The notes under the pieces were generated by a model, which was not told where the DNA came from, made no database searches, and worked only from the letters and a program-made list of their open reading frames with translations. The position numbers and the translations under genes are program-made. A stretch of DNA of 64,000 bases from Batrachochytrium dendrobatidis JAM81 (taxonomy: Eukaryota > Chytridiomycota > Chytridiomycetes > Rhizophydiales), in assembly GCF_000203795.2 (NCBI RefSeq), contig NW_006281106.1:1165813-1229812 (forward strand), in the 5' to 3' direction. Every line of letters starts with the position of its first letter. Positions within the stretch are counted from its first letter, which is position 1. This document shows positions 4,772-53,066 of the stretch, in pieces.

Positions 4772-7322
4772 TCATTCAACAATCTCCTTTAAAGTGGTGT
4801 CATCCGAGTCAGTGTCATGTAAATATGCAGCAATTCTGGAAAAGAAACGTTGTGCCATGTCGATAGTAAATTCAATCTCTTCTTGCAGAAACATGGGCAA
4901 ATTAGGAATACCTCCATTTAACATGGTCACTTTGGTGGGATTGAACATGCAAATAGCAACATCTTTGTTGCATGGCGCGTAAAAGGAAAACTCCATTGCT
5001 ATAATGTTGAAAGATTAAACAAATATAAATGACATAGCTTAATAACCTATTGAATAACATATGGCCATTACTACACATACCGTGTCTGGGACCATTCTGC
5101 TGGCACCTAAACTCGTTAAAAGGTAAATCTCGGCTACATCCTGAATCGTCATCCACACTACGCACAACCCTTTCCACACCAAGAATGTGAATACCAGTAA
5201 AGGCTTTGTAGATCATGCTCATTTTTTCAAAAGTGGCCAGTTTCTCTAAATACTCGTCTGTTGGTTTTGGCCGAGTAGCCTCTGCAGCACTCGGTTCCAC
5301 CGACCCTTGTACAGGACGAGCAAGAGCATCAACTGAGTTTATGTTATCAACAGTCCATTTGCATACAGGTTAAATTCAACCGCAAATAAATCATTTCAGT
5401 TAAAACCTATGTACCTGTATTGCAAGATTCTTTGCTTTCAGTACTGTCCGGCTTAAATTTCCACTCTTTAACAAATCTCTCAAATATTCCCGTTTCTATC
5501 GTTTGCTTGGTCGCATGAGACTGATCTTGCAATCCAGACAGAGTGTCCAAAGTAGTTTTAGAAGCTGGTTTCTTTAATTTAATGTTTTCTTTGGATAGAG
5601 TTTCAACGCGCTCAAGCAATCGCTTATTCTCACTAGTAAGATGCTCTGTGAGCTCGTTACATGCTATATGGCACAATACGATACCAAGATACAGGGTTAA
5701 CTTGCCATTCTATCCAGAGATCATAACACAAACCGTATTATTTACCTTGTAAGCGAACATTTGAAGCGGTTTGAAAAGAATCAAAAGTCTTTTTGGCTTC
5801 TACAATTCCAACCAAAAATAGTTCGTCGTATTGCTTTTTAAGAATCTGCAGTTCCTTTTTAATCTGGTGTAGTACATGTTAAATGGTAAGATTAGCCATT
5901 TTGGTTGAAAAGCATGCTCTTGACAAAATATCCAACCTTGAGTAATTCAGGATGATCCGACCGAGTAGATACATGTGTACTGGTGGTCTTGGTATCTTTA
6001 CAATGACTGCAGTGCTCTTGACTATCCGACGTACAAGGTGCGTTGGATTGACTAGATGGCTGATGTGCATCATGAACATCATGAACATCCAATGCAGATA
6101 CGGAATCTTGACTAGTTTTTAAACCGTTTGATTTGGATATTGCACTGCTATTTTGGCAAGCATCCTTTTCAGCGTATTCTGCACTTGAGAGATTGGAGCC
6201 TTTCAGTGCGGATTGACCAGCATGGGGTTGAGTAACCATTTTACCCATAGCAGCTGGTTTAGATTCAGCCTTTCTTTTTGTTTCACTAACAATGCTCGAG
6301 TCTAGTAAAGTCTCGTTGGCGGGTAGTAAAACAGATTTCTCAGATGGATCTTGCACATGCTTGACTCGCTTATTATGTCGCTTACGGCGAACTTTTGCTT
6401 CTAGCAACTCATCGTTTGAATACACATCACGATGATCTAAATGAGGATGATTCTCGACCGTGTGAGCACGGACCTTGGTTAGGGATGTAGTGTCATTCAT
6501 GGCCTGATTGGAATCTGTATCTATACAACATCAAGTAAAGTTAGTATATATTTACTGAACGACCGATATTACTAGATGGAGCCAGCATTCATTTTGAAAA
6601 TGTACGAATACCTTTTGAAACGACTTTTGATGACTTTTTTAAATTGGACTTGTATACAACATTGGAGTGCGTCGGTGAGTGTGAATGGGGAATACCAGCG
6701 GATACATCAGACTCATTTTGCTGGTCATCATCGTCTAGCTGATCGTCTATATCTCTAACTTTCCAAAATTCCCGAGGGGGTACTCGCTTTCTCTTGTCGT
6801 TGTTGAATTCGTTCTCCTTTTCAATCGAGTCATTGTCAGGCTGGGTAGATTCGTCCGGACATGCATGCACGTTTGAAGTTGATTCGTATAAATGATTTCC
6901 TCTAGCTGTGGTGGATTTAGAGGTTGCCTTGACAACAGGCGATACAACAAATTCCTTGCCACTGACCTGGTTGGCAGATATTCCCTGATAGGCAGATGTA
7001 TAAATGTCAATATTGGGATAGTAATAAACTGAAACACTCGGAAATGGAACAATGGCCAAGCCGACTCAAGGCAGACTAATGAGAATATATCTAATAAAAA
7101 GGACTTTGGATATCATTCAAGAGTACCAAAACATGGACATCTTGAAACTGACCAACGAATGCACACTCCACTTACTAAACGTGATGGTGAGGATGGACTG
7201 TGATGTTTGCTGACAAGAGATTCAGTGTCCAACTGAGTAGTATTTGGAGGAATATCAGACACCGAGTTTGAAAAAGTAGCTGCAAGAGGTTTTGCAGCAT
7301 GCAGTCGATTCCGCTTGACCAT
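4772..7322 (-). CDS. Csm1/Pcs1-domain kinetochore protein with a CENP-C-like motif
   Basis: Seven exons on the minus strand (7322-7176, 6984-6612, 6520-5937, 5863-5746, 5663-5415, 5332-5081, 4998-4772) join in frame to about 649 residues, all with GT..AG introns. The C-terminal ~150 residues match the Csm1/Pcs1 globular (RWD-like) fold: YKAFTGIHILG, a strand with FSFYAP, then LPMFLQEEIEFTIDMAQRFF. A coiled coil precedes it (exons 4-5, e.g. IKKELQILKKQYDE and a heptad stretch in LTSENKRLLERVETLSKE), as in monopolin. Near residues 113-128 (about 6750-6795) lies KRKRVPPREFWKVRDID, which aligns with the CENP-C motif (R-x-R-[LV]-x-P-x-E-[YF]-W) that binds CENP-A nucleosomes. In yeasts Csm1/Pcs1 cross-links kinetochore microtubule sites and binds kinetochore proteins. 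The central region is basic and Ser-rich with no recognised domain. The start is the ATG at 7322; the longer frame above it has no ATG. Confidence 0.8.
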
Positions 7323-39037: not shown

Positions 39038-40489
39038 CTATTCAAGCCCTTCGCAAACCCATACACCTGAAAATTCCTGGATCTCACACTTGCAGTTCAT
39101 AAACACCATTCGAGACAACTGCCGCTGGTATTCTTTGCAAGATCGAATATGGTTACGATCCAAAAGTCGGTATACCTTGCATCTGTCGTGTGGCGTGAGT
39201 GGAATTAAGCTGTCGGCATCAATGGTCAGCATCCAAGAGGTTGGATGGATACCAACCCATATAGAGGATGGACATGCAAGAAGCGTGTTGTAAGCCATCG
39301 ACTTTGATCCAAATTTATATGTACAATAGATTTCGAATCCAGATGGATCACCATCAACAAGAACTAACACCATCAAATCCGATTCTGTAGTCGTTAAAAC
39401 TTGACCCAGCTCAATCTCGGTTGATCTGCCAAACTCGACTTCAAAATCTGACATAGTTCTTGGGTTTATTCGATACATGCGCGACTGGCTGAGCATGCAG
39501 ACAAGTCTCCTTGTAGCCATATCAGGAAACCCACGACCAGTAATGAGAATAATGTGTGGGTGCGTGTGCCAGAACCCATATTGTAGCATGGAAAAGAATA
39601 CAGCGTCTTTTTCCACCACCAATACCGTTGTGACACCATCGCCAACTGTAAACCCAATGATTGTATCTGCATTTGGAATCAAAGTGCCAGACGTAGTATT
39701 GCTACAACAGTCAAGAATATCTCCCTTGCTTGTATGAATCCACAGCCGGCCATATACGACTCCTTTTGAGGCGGCAACAATCATCAACTGATCGCGGGAA
39801 ATACCAAATGAGCAAGCCAAATCTTCCACAATTTCATCCACTTGTTTCTGGGTACGAAACTGGTGAATATTGCGATAGTATATATCTCGTTTTGTGCAAC
39901 GACTCTGGGTGAATAAAAGTGAATGAATGCATTTGAGAATGGATACGATGGCATCAAAGGTGGAGATGGATCTGCCGATACGTTTAATGAGTTTGTATTT
40001 AGGATTAGCTGAATCTACCGAGTTTTTACCCGTAAACGAGTCAAACCTGTCATGCATGTCAAATATAGTTTAACGTCAGTAGTTGAATTGGATTAGCTTT
40101 GATGGCAATATATTTAAACTGTACTGTTTGAATCAAGTGAGTTACGTTGTGGATTTATAGCGACAAACAAGCTGCAAGGCAGGAATATGGTTTCTGCCCA
40201 TCACACTTTGGATAGATTCAAGAATACTGAAAATATGTTTTACCAAAAGGGTTTTGGTAGGTGGAGTAACTGGAATGAGCATCACAGACAGAGTAGGTGA
40301 AATGGTAGTATTAGCACATGGCTGTAAGGACTTGCAATCCATCAAGTTGAGCTCATCAGGAAACAAGTCGGGGAGTAAATCGGGAAACAAATCGGTTTCA
40401 TCAGACATGATATCCCAATCCAACACTGTTGAACTAGTTTGCATATCCATGCAGACGTTGTCATTGACACAGCAGCAGTTGGGTTCCAT
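39038..40489 (-). CDS. SPO11: SPO11 meiotic DNA double-strand-break enzyme (TopoVI-A-like)
   Basis: Makes the double-strand breaks that start meiotic recombination. Exons 40489-40146 and 40046-39038 join to about 450 residues. The catalytic tyrosine motif KRDIYYRN is at about residue 160-170 (the second Tyr is the nucleophile in the family). LACSFGISRDQL and VVAASKGVVYGRL follow. The Toprim domain shows EKDAVF, ITGRGFPDMATR and VDGDPSGFEIYCTYKFGS; the usual DxD is present as DGD. The N-terminus (about 100 residues) is acidic and unconserved. The open frame continues above 40489 without another ATG. Presence supports a sexual or parasexual capacity in this lineage. Confidence 0.93.
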
Positions 40490-49478: not shown

Positions 49479-51089
49479 ATATCTATTTTCCCAAGCTATG
49501 TATATACAATTTTGTTATATGTTAATTGATACTAATTTGGAATGGCTGTTTGAGCTTTTTTCATAACGATTGCAACCTTTTGTTTGCTGTCTTGAAACCA
49601 GCCCAGATTAGCATCCAAATCAATCGAATGGATCGTTACATCTGGGTCGACCCTACTCATCACACATATCACTGTGTACCACACGAAACTCTGTGTACAC
49701 CGAACGTTGTTTGATCAGTTTGAGTGCATTGAGCTATATGCGTATCAATCATATCGGGTGTAGACTACCATCATCTTGACACAATGTTCATGATCCATGG
49801 ACGCACTATCACAATCATGACACCAATCAACCGACCGTGTAATTGTGTCATTGTATGATCAGCGGTCAAACCATATACTAACCACTTGCCAACATCTACA
49901 CATGAATTATTGTGCTGTTGGACATTACACACAATGGATAGCACAAGTGTTGTATCTGACTGATCTGATTGACATTACATGTATGAATACAATCACATTT
50001 GGGTTTGACAACATCGGAATGTTGATGTTCAAATTGAATACTTGGTATTGGAATCCAGACATTTAGTTTGATGAACCATATCATGATCACGTAGTTCAGT
50101 CACGATCCAATTGACATGAACAGTCGAGTCGTGTAGTTTGGGTTCAGCTTGACACATTTGTATTGTCAATCTCGGACAAAACGTCAAAAGTGGATCAATG
50201 TCAACTGAAACAACCAACAGACTGGATCTAGTATGTGTAGTCGAACTGGGTTGTATATACTGATCACAGTAAACAACTCGAGTGTCATTTTACTGGTTGT
50301 GGTTATGGGGACATGCCAGTGTTGGATACATACAGCGTTACAATGATGGGTCAGCAACAATGTGATGGAACTGGATGCGTAATATCAAAACCATGTCCAG
50401 AATACGTGATATAACGACAACTTGCAACCATATTGATGTAAATGGACCACTAAATAACAGTGTCGGTGTGTGATAAACAGTTGCATTACTGACATGTGTC
50501 ATGATCGTATTTGTGATTCAGAATACAACAAATGTGTAGAGTTGTATTGACATCAGACCAGTCAAACACAACATATGAATATGGGTTTAAGCTTGTTGAT
50601 CGTACACTGTATGATTACTAAAAGTGCACAAAGTGTAGATTCAACATTATGGTTTGATTGTGATTATTAAAAAATTGAAAATATAGTCAATTTCCATCAA
50701 GAAACCACAATAAATATGAAACCATTGTGTGTTGCAATGCAGAACACAGTCACTTCAGGATGAATATCAAAGTGATCCATTTGACATGAACACGGTTGTA
50801 AAAGGGTGCGTTTACAAGGCTACACAACACTCCTGAAGGGTGCTTTTCAAGACATCTGATAAAAGGGTCGTGGAGGTATAGTATGATATTGTGGCTAGGG
50901 AGTAGCATGCTGTCTAGTTTGATAGTAGCCCATCGCAAGCGATCAAGCAACCATGTGTAGTTGACTAACCTAAAAGGGTTGGTTTGCTATACAAAATATA
51001 AGTACTGTCAAGTCGCTCAGTTTTAGAATTGACACCAGTTTCAACACTCTACTTTTGTACCAACTGTTTAAACATATTCATTAGACTTG
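49479..51089. other. Gene-poor spacer, 1.6 kb, of unusual word composition
   Basis: No supported gene. The stretch is crowded with TGACA/TGTCA, GACAT and TTGTAT-type words and lacks the A/T runs of upstream spacers. It contains the repeat at 49592-49657. The last 100 bp, with TATAAGTA at 50997-51004, is the likely promoter of the next gene. Confidence 0.45.
49592..49657 (-). repeat. Repeat shared with the 3' end of the secreted gene at 57044
   Basis: About 65 bp resembling 57016-57082 (CCAGATTAGCATYCAAATCAATYGGATGGATCGT...). In the other copy this covers the last codons and stop of a secreted protein gene, so this copy may be the tail of a lost paralogue; the sequence beyond does not match. 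Confidence 0.6.
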
Positions 51090-53066
51090 ATGAAAATCAC
51101 CGACATTTTATTTGTATTGAGTGCGGCAGTAACCGCTAATGCAATGCTGGTCTCGACTGGTAGCAATGGTTCGTTCGAAGCATCTGGCTTAATTGCTGGA
51201 TTCAGTCCAAGAATTTACAAACGAGGTCGGGAAACCCCATTTGATAAAGATCAGTCAGATAATAATGGCTCGAATCAAGGGACTACATCAAGTAAAAAAA
51301 ATCAACTCATTCGTCGATTAGAGAGAGAACTTCACGAAGCTGATATCGCAGAAGAAGTCGCAGCTGATGCTTTCCATAGGTATGAGAATCTTAAACACCG
51401 TCAAGAAATGTTAGCGTTGAAAGGAAAAGCGATATCTGGAGAAAAGCATAGTGAACAACGTCAACAGGAATTGAAAAAAGAGTGGGGTGCTGCATTAGAA
51501 AAATTCGTCCTTTTGAGAGAAAAGTTACAAACCGAATCAGCCACTCCTAGTCGAGACCGGAAACACTCGATTGATGATCCCGGCTCAAGTACTTCTGGTC
51601 GAGGTCGGAAACACTCGGTTATTGAACCTAACCCATGCACTACCAAACAAAGCCGGAAACTCCCATCTGATAAAGAACAGCCAAGAGAAAACCGTGAGCT
51701 CATTCGTCAATTAGTGAAAGAACTCGAAGCTGCTGATGCTGCAGAAACAGCCGCATGCGAGGCTTCATATGCGTATAGGGTTATTGAATATGAACAAAAA
51801 AGGTTAATATCGCAGGGCAAACCGATAATTGGGAAAAAGCATAGCGGAATACATCAATGTCGATTAGATAATCAATGGCAAACTACAGGAAAAAAAGTAG
51901 AACGCCTGGAACAACAATTACAAGAAGCCAGATTAGCCACTCCTAGTCGAGACCGGAAACACTCGATTGATGATCCCGGCTCAAGCACTTCTGGTCGAGG
52001 CCGGAAACACTCGGTTATTGAACCTAACCCATGCACTACCAAACAAAGCCGGAAACTCCCATCTGATAAAGAACAGCCAAGAGAAAACCGTGAGCTCATT
52101 CGTCAATTAGTGAAAGAACTCGAAGCTGCTGATGCTGCAGAAACAGCCGCATGCGAGGCTTCATATGCGTATAGGGTTATTGAATATGAACAAAAAAGGT
52201 TAATATCGCAGGGCAAACCGATAATTGGGAAAAAGCATAGCGGAATACATCAATGTCGATTAGATAATCAATGGCAAACTACAGGAAAAAAAGTAGAACA
52301 CCTGGAACAACAATTACAAGAAGCCAGATTAGCCACTCCAAAACAAAGCCGGAAACACTCGATTGATGATCCTGGCTCAAGCACTTCTGGTCGAGGCCGG
52401 AAACACTCAATTGTTAGACACCATTCAGATACTGATTCAGATCAGGGAATTGCACCAGCCAAAAAACATAGACCCACTCATCAACTAGATATAAATCTTG
52501 AAAACGCTGAAAGAGCAAGAGTGGCCGCATGCAATTCCTACTATGAATATAAAGCTACTCGACTCGAACAGAAAAAGTTGAAATCAAACGGTCAAAAGAT
52601 ATCTGGAAAAAAGTACAGTTCAAGGACTGAACATGAATTGAAAGAAAAGTGTAGGAAGGCAAGTAAAGCAAAACACTACATGATACGACAGCTAGAAGGA
52701 ACAAATGGAAACACTCCCAGTCGAAGCCGGAAACACTCAGTTGTTAGACACCATTCAGATACCGATTCGGATCAAGAGACTTTATCAAGAAAAAAGTATA
52801 GGAAGCTTGTTCGTAAACTAAAAAGAAGAATCAAAGAGTATAGAAGGAGACAAAAGGATGTATGCAAAGAATATCGTGAACATCAATTCTTTGTATCCAA
52901 ACAACAGTCAAGATTAACAAGGGGTAAAAGTGTATCGAAATCATTCTACGACTTAGAGGATTTAGAGAAGCTGGAAAGAAAATGTAAAAGGGCAGGAAGA
53001 AGGGTAGAATATCTGGAGCAAAAGCTAAGAAAACTTATGGGTGAGTCAGATTCAGATTCAGATTGA
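51090..53066 (+). CDS. Secreted coiled-coil protein with internal tandem repeats
   Basis: Single-exon frame of 658 residues from the ATG at 51090. A signal peptide (MKITDILFVLSAAVTANA) is followed by a stretch ending in IYKRG, a likely KR processing site. The mature protein alternates long charged helices (e.g. NRELIRQLVKELEAADAAE) with Ser/Arg-rich linkers built on RKHS and SGRGRKHS motifs. A 132-residue unit occurs twice in near identity (see 51540-52331), and a more diverged third unit follows. The C-terminal ~100 residues are very Lys/Arg-rich and end in ESDSDSD. No known domain. Strongly basic secreted coiled coils of this sort are lineage-specific; an effector or nucleic-acid-binding role is inference only. 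Confidence 0.82.
   Translation: MKITDILFVLSAAVTANAMLVSTGSNGSFEASGLIAGFSPRIYKRGRETPFDKDQSDNNGSNQGTTSSKKNQLIRRLERELHEADIAEEVAADAFHRYENLKHRQEMLALKGKAISGEKHSEQRQQELKKEWGAALEKFVLLREKLQTESATPSRDRKHSIDDPGSSTSGRGRKHSVIEPNPCTTKQSRKLPSDKEQPRENRELIRQLVKELEAADAAETAACEASYAYRVIEYEQKRLISQGKPIIGKKHSGIHQCRLDNQWQTTGKKVERLEQQLQEARLATPSRDRKHSIDDPGSSTSGRGRKHSVIEPNPCTTKQSRKLPSDKEQPRENRELIRQLVKELEAADAAETAACEASYAYRVIEYEQKRLISQGKPIIGKKHSGIHQCRLDNQWQTTGKKVEHLEQQLQEARLATPKQSRKHSIDDPGSSTSGRGRKHSIVRHHSDTDSDQGIAPAKKHRPTHQLDINLENAERARVAACNSYYEYKATRLEQKKLKSNGQKISGKKYSSRTEHELKEKCRKASKAKHYMIRQLEGTNGNTPSRSRKHSVVRHHSDTDSDQETLSRKKYRKLVRKLKRRIKEYRRRQKDVCKEYREHQFFVSKQQSRLTRGKSVSKSFYDLEDLEKLERKCKRAGRRVEYLEQKLRKLMGESDSDSD
51540..52331 (+). 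repeat. 396-bp in-frame tandem duplication
   Basis: Two head-to-tail copies, 51540-51935 and 51936-52331, each encoding 132 residues that begin ATPSRDRKHSIDDPGS. They differ at only a handful of sites (for instance the Arg/His before LEQQLQEA). A third partial copy starts at 52332 with the linker part and then diverges. Near identity means recent duplication or gene conversion. Confidence 0.93.

Follow-up and report, generated by a model that had tools for sequence, protein, structure and literature searches.

The Csm1/Pcs1 Gene

Batrachochytrium dendrobatidis (Bd) is the chytrid fungus that kills frogs. The stretch of its genome described here, referred to as the window, comprises 64,000 nucleotides of strain JAM81 (contig NW_006281106.1, positions 1,165,813 to 1,229,812) and harbors, at 4772..7322 on the minus strand, a gene whose product is a member of the Csm1/Pcs1 (monopolin) family. 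The sequence supports the view that this one protein combines two elements, the Csm1/Pcs1 domain and a conserved motif of the CENP-C type. Csm1 in Bd and in two relatives may hold centromeres directly, and not solely through other proteins.

The gene runs from an ATG at 7322 to a stop at 4772, and its seven exons (7322-7176, 6984-6612, 6520-5937, 5863-5746, 5663-5415, 5332-5081 and 4998-4772) join into a single open frame of 649 codons. All six introns are of the GT..AG type, the first being 191 nt in length and the other five 73-91 nt. The donor of intron 3 is an unusual GTTGGA, with which both the reading frame and the annotation of a second Bd sequence, P0001, agree. This sequence was annotated independently, and its gene MT418_005227 (646 aa) is spliced identically to the window gene; 642 of the 646 aligned residues are the same in the two proteins (99%), with one 3-residue length difference. 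The spliced frame and the P0001 annotation bear out the coordinates, strand and exon count that an initial annotation, made from the window sequence alone, had given.

The Csm1/Pcs1 Domain

A coiled coil at residues about 364-438 (5572..5951, minus strand as for all features of the gene, spanning introns 3 and 4) is followed by a C-terminal globular domain at residues about 512-636 (4814..5270, spanning intron 6). The same arrangement is found in the Csm1/Pcs1 proteins of S. cerevisiae, C. glabrata and S. pombe and in Arabidopsis CSM1/TTN9. In the AlphaFold model the coiled coil appears as a long helix at 361-435 (P0001 numbering) ahead of the globular domain, with a block pLDDT of 77-94. Orthologues were found in two other chytrids, B. 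salamandrivorans and P. stewartii; searches with the Bd query alone returned Bd only, and the relatives came from a mixed-alignment query.

The P. stewartii orthologue matches the Pfam family PF12539 at 32.3 bits (E 1.5e-7), over the cut-off of 22.6, while B. salamandrivorans (17.2 bits), P0001 (13.0 bits) and pieces of the window protein (14.9 and 16.3 bits) fall below it, and the family is not listed in the Pfam scan of the whole window protein. Alignment of the chytrid domains with 26 yeast-type Csm1 sequences in hhalign gave a P of 0.00039 and a probability of 35%. In a fold search with the modelled Bd domain, Csm1 structures fill the best 12 rows, which points to the Csm1 globular fold; it counts against this result that 15 of the 18 rows in the alignment behind the model were themselves yeast-type Csm1, which may bias the model toward that fold. 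The Bd domain and yeast Csm1 gave no alignment in BLASTP, and a search of the C-terminal half against PDB sequences listed no Csm1 among its 5 matches up to E 10. The orthologue over the cut-off and the match to Csm1 structures nevertheless establish that the domain proposed after the coiled coil is real.

Within it, the segment EEIEF (residues 614-618, 4868..4882) places Ile616 in alignment with L161 of S. cerevisiae Csm1 and I241 of the S. pombe protein, residues that line the hydrophobic Dsn1-binding cavity of Csm1 (PMC6823300). This comparison concerns a single residue, in which Bd has the Ile of S. pombe.

Six-frame searches of the Bd genome with PF12539 gave 0 matches at E 0.001. Three weak matches at E up to 10 (contigs C27, C1 and C12) do not include the window gene and look non-coding to us. 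Two of the three (L010 and L011), which score 20.9 and 19.9 bits, are copies of one repeat, a caution for six-frame matches at such scores. The Lrs4/Mde4 family (PF10422) had no match in the genome, and its control likewise matched nowhere.

A CENP-C-Type Motif in the N-Terminus

Unlike known Csm1 proteins, Bd Csm1 carries a long, disordered N-terminus (about 360 aa) that bears a KEN tripeptide, an F[LV]VSP element and the CENP-C-type motif. In the alignment of the three chytrid proteins, 34 of 360 columns are invariant in the N-terminus, against 67 of 286 in the C-terminus, and among N-terminal segments of 13 columns the most conserved is the motif itself (KRKRVPPREFWKV, KRKRIPPREFWRV, RRKRSKPKEFWRV). 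In Bd it reads KRKRVPPREFWK and occupies residues K113-K124 of exon 2 (6760..6795), as originally numbered. The core RxxxxPxx[Y/F/W]W is represented by R114, P119, F122 and W123, all of them invariant in the three species, so that the key Arg, Pro, aromatic residue and Trp are conserved in both orthologues. Counted from the Trp as 0, the Arg lies at -9, a second basic residue at -7, the Pro at -4 and the aromatic at -1, and P-x-E-F-W-x-V is kept throughout at fixed spacing. We take the three species to belong to the order Rhizophydiales.

The motif was scored with a position-specific scoring matrix (PSSM) of 12 positions, built from seven known motifs and no Csm1: yeast, chicken, rat, human and the human central region (the species of the PDB-derived rows being those we presume), together with Bd CENP-C and Bd KNL2. 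Its best site in each chytrid Csm1 is the motif island, at 17.4 bits in the window protein, 15.1 in B. salamandrivorans and 18.5 in P. stewartii; of 3000 shuffles of each protein, 0, 4 and 0, respectively, reached these scores. When the 214 ungapped N-terminal columns were shuffled with conservation kept, none of 200,000 trials reached the joint score of 51.1 bits, the maximum being 37.2. No motif-like site was seen in 57 other Csm1 proteins (best 2.9 bits), which are just 105-252 aa long and come from outside S. pombe, Arabidopsis, the filamentous ascomycetes, basidiomycetes, Mucoromycota and other chytrid orders. A profile of the three islands, with CENP-C not named in the query, was also run against 177,635 PDB sequences; a CENP-C chain came top, at E 0.98, and an unrelated NFATC2 sequence was the second of the two listed, at E 1.3.

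These results bear on the explanation that the likeness is due to chance, or to a gene model that joins two genes. As a bare DNA pattern, the core does occur at chance level in the six frames of the genome, with 5 places against 9 for a reversed control, and the pattern is therefore uninformative alone. The initial annotation had called for evidence that the exons form one gene, and comparison supports this, since the same domain order is annotated for Csm1 in all three chytrid species. The column shuffles and the remaining four genomic cores, which lie in open frames of merely 31-46 aa, indicate a motif beyond chance, and together with the shared domain order they leave chance or mis-joining nearly refuted.

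Two further conserved elements stand upstream. The KEN tripeptide (residues 105-107, 6811..6819), a few residues ahead of the motif, is invariant in all three proteins and is a possible KEN box, or degron, for the APC/C. An island at residues 54-65 (NQVSGKEFVVSP, 6937..6972), with 7 of 13 columns invariant, follows the pattern NQxSxxxF[LV]VSP and ends in an S-P site.

Comparison with CENP-C and KNL2

The core of the CENP-C motif is RxxxxPxxYW or RxxxxPxxWW, in which the Arg and the aromatic residues are required for full nucleosome binding (PMC4830207). Related CENPC-k motifs are known outside CENP-C, in KNL2, chytrid KNL2 included; the plant form is KRSRSGRV/LLVSPLEFW, and its seventh-place Arg (Trp minus 9) and Trp are required for targeting (PMC9210943). 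Bd Csm1 shares with CENP-C/Mif2 the core RxxxxPxx[aromatic]W, the basic residue at Trp minus 7 and a basic residue after the Trp, and with plant KNL2/M18BP1 the same core and the Glu-Phe-Trp. The Pfam scan of the window protein lists neither the cupin domain PF11699 of CENP-C nor the SANTA domain PF09133 of KNL2/M18BP1.

Several observations weigh against reading the island as a functional CENP-C motif. The width of the PSSM was picked after the motif had been seen, and Bd itself supplied two of the seven rows used to train the matrix. The top E value in the PDB profile search is weak, and the single Bd motif peptide gave 0 matches there up to E 10. A hidden Markov model (HMM) of five CENP-C motifs, a check proposed at the outset, did pick the correct site in the chytrid proteins, with a weak score (P 0.026-0.11 per protein). 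Conservation extends over three species, all of them chytrids. Bd Csm1 has Phe in place of the Tyr of CENP-C, although plant KNL2 has PLEFW, and neither of the vertebrate CENP-C flanks is present: the upstream RxxR Arg is replaced by Asn, Pro or Gly at Trp minus 12, and the downstream GERxxY is absent.

Much of this would fit a different explanation, in which a KRKR run acts as a nuclear localization signal and PxEFW serves to dock another protein, be it a kinase, phosphatase, condensin or nucleolar factor; the resemblance would then be convergence with no binding of CENP-A. The KRKR run of Bd Csm1 does resemble such a signal, the Phe, the missing flanks and the weak HMM score agree with this explanation, and Csm1, Lrs4, Pcs1 and Mde4 concentrate in nucleoli besides kinetochores (PMC1931489). 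A localization signal, however, does not require P-x-E-F-W-x-V to be invariant and constant in spacing. Three species retain the Arg, aromatic and Trp identified by CENP-C and KNL2 mutants, the PDB profile search is topped by a CENP-C chain, if at a weak E value, and Csm1 itself is a member of a kinetochore family. We consider convergence of this kind unlikely.

The CENP-A System of the Bd Genome

The genes for CENP-C, KNL2, CENP-A and Dsn1 were read as pieces of coding sequence. A separate CENP-C gene, another check proposed from the start, is present on contig C8; its pieces include the N-terminus MSVPCFRKTGWAQ..., a motif of the gene's own, RRSRRTKVQPVAYWKNERVIY, and a PF11699 cupin over cut-off. 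In the PDB the motif region matches 6 rows of CENP-C/Mif2 chains, the best of them at E 2.4e-5. The idea that the motif had been transferred from CENP-C to Csm1 was dropped because Bd CENP-C retains its own. Nor does the term CENP-C/Pcs1 fusion, used in the initial annotation, describe the window protein: the likeness extends over only about 12 residues, with neither the RxxR and GERxxY flanks nor the cupin, and CENP-C is encoded on another contig.

The KNL2/M18BP1 gene, on contig C1, encodes a SANTA domain that scores 66.3 bits, as well as the motif TRSGRTVVKPLAYWKSER. A second SANTA gene (L023, C7:205500-214500, 64.6 bits) shows zinc-finger-like repeats by eye in its open frame, and unlike KNL2 it shows no CENP-C-type core over the 9 kb that were scanned. 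Canonical H3 lies on contig C33. CENP-A, on contig C31, has H3-like exons at 55-76% identity and a hydrophobic tail, RRIRGPWGGLG; its loop 1 appears, in our own reading, to be longer. The C-terminus of human CENP-A is LEEGLG, and it is contacted by the aromatic residues of CENP-C (PMC5371998).

Dsn1/Mis13 (PF08202) lies on contig C2 and contains the Box-1-like sequence KGFVFTVKRRK, placed, on our reading, at an exon start. It resembles the S. pombe Dsn1 Box 1 peptide PEEQEGFVFVRKG, which binds Csm1 (PMC6823300). The Bd Dsn1 pieces did not reveal the acidic part of Box 1, which would be expected upstream, in another exon; this is a further point on the negative side.

Monopolin has roles at the rDNA in yeast. 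Another explanation is that the motif recognizes the acidic patch whether the nucleosome contains H3 or CENP-A, and acts as a general chromatin anchor at the rDNA or pericentromere, with kinetochore specificity supplied by Dsn1. Specificity for CENP-A is lower in the CENP-C motif than in the central region (PMC7333888), and CENP-C shows modest selectivity in vitro (PMC5371998). Set against this, both of the aromatics proposed to contact the CENP-A tail are unchanged across the three species, and a purely general anchor seems rather improbable.

A Proposed Parallel Link from the Nucleosome to the Outer Kinetochore

The reading we favor, and consider probable, is that the disordered N-terminus of Bd Csm1/Pcs1 carries a functional CENP-C-type nucleosome-binding motif, and that the protein provides a parallel link from the nucleosome to the outer kinetochore. 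From the features described above we infer nucleosome binding, that of CENP-A nucleosomes included, dimerization, Dsn1 binding and the linking role. Arg114 (Trp minus 9), aided by Arg116, would dock on the acidic patch of H2A-H2B, and Phe122-Trp123 would pack against the hydrophobic tail at the CENP-A C-terminus. Through its coiled coil Csm1 would dimerize and so present two motifs, and its C-terminal domain would bind Dsn1 Box 1 and thereby hold the Mis12 complex. The disordered arms of the dimer would touch the CENP-A nucleosome and its heads the Mis12 complex, in a topology like that of CENP-C, making Csm1 a second link, parallel to CENP-C, from centromeric nucleosomes to the outer kinetochore. 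Such a dimer could cross-link adjacent CENP-A nucleosomes or microtubule-binding units.

S. pombe Pcs1 is a binding partner of Cnp3 (CENP-C). Csm1 reaches the kinetochore by Dsn1 Box 1, a route that the authors propose to be ancestral and universal (PMC6823300); chytrid Csm1 would retain this Dsn1-binding end and gain a nucleosome-reading one. S. pombe Pcs1-Mde4 has been proposed to clamp microtubule-binding sites within one kinetochore (PMC1931489), and direct nucleosome contact would suit clamping of that type.

A broader proposal is put forward only tentatively. In these chytrids, and possibly in ancestral fungi, Csm1 would be a third CENP-A reader beside CENP-C and KNL2, its dimer offering two motifs and two Dsn1 sockets as a CENP-C-independent bridge to Mis12 that cross-links CENP-A nucleosomes, and the KEN tripeptide may time its removal.

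In the open PMC text searched, which takes in neither subscription papers nor supplements, no monopolin protein, Csm1 and Pcs1 included, is described with a CENP-C-type motif. The motif carriers named in the available text of PMC6823300, PMC7333888, PMC9210943, PMC12595034, PMC1931489, PMC5371998, PMC4830207, PMC13294675 and PMC11879092 are CENP-C and KNL2/M18BP1, and for this reason what appears to be new here is a known family, Csm1, with an added motif of known type. If the proposed link is correct, Csm1 would be the third family with a CENP-C motif, and one whose binding to the Mis12 complex via Dsn1 is established. Outer-kinetochore linkers would then have acquired CENP-A reading on more than one occasion, and there would be a direct answer, for one clade, to how monopolin locates centromeres. 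A short Csm1 peptide is predicted to bind CENP-A nucleosomes and to compete with CENP-C and KNL2.

Other Features of the Window

The meiosis gene Spo11, with TP6A_N and Spo11 Toprim domains, is likewise encoded on the minus strand, at 39041-40069, some 32 kb away from Csm1. At 51072-53063 there is a 664-aa open frame that contains repeated, near-identical segments (RDRKHSIDDPGSSTSGRGRKHS...), with a Pfam match below cut-off and what looks by eye to be a signal-like start.
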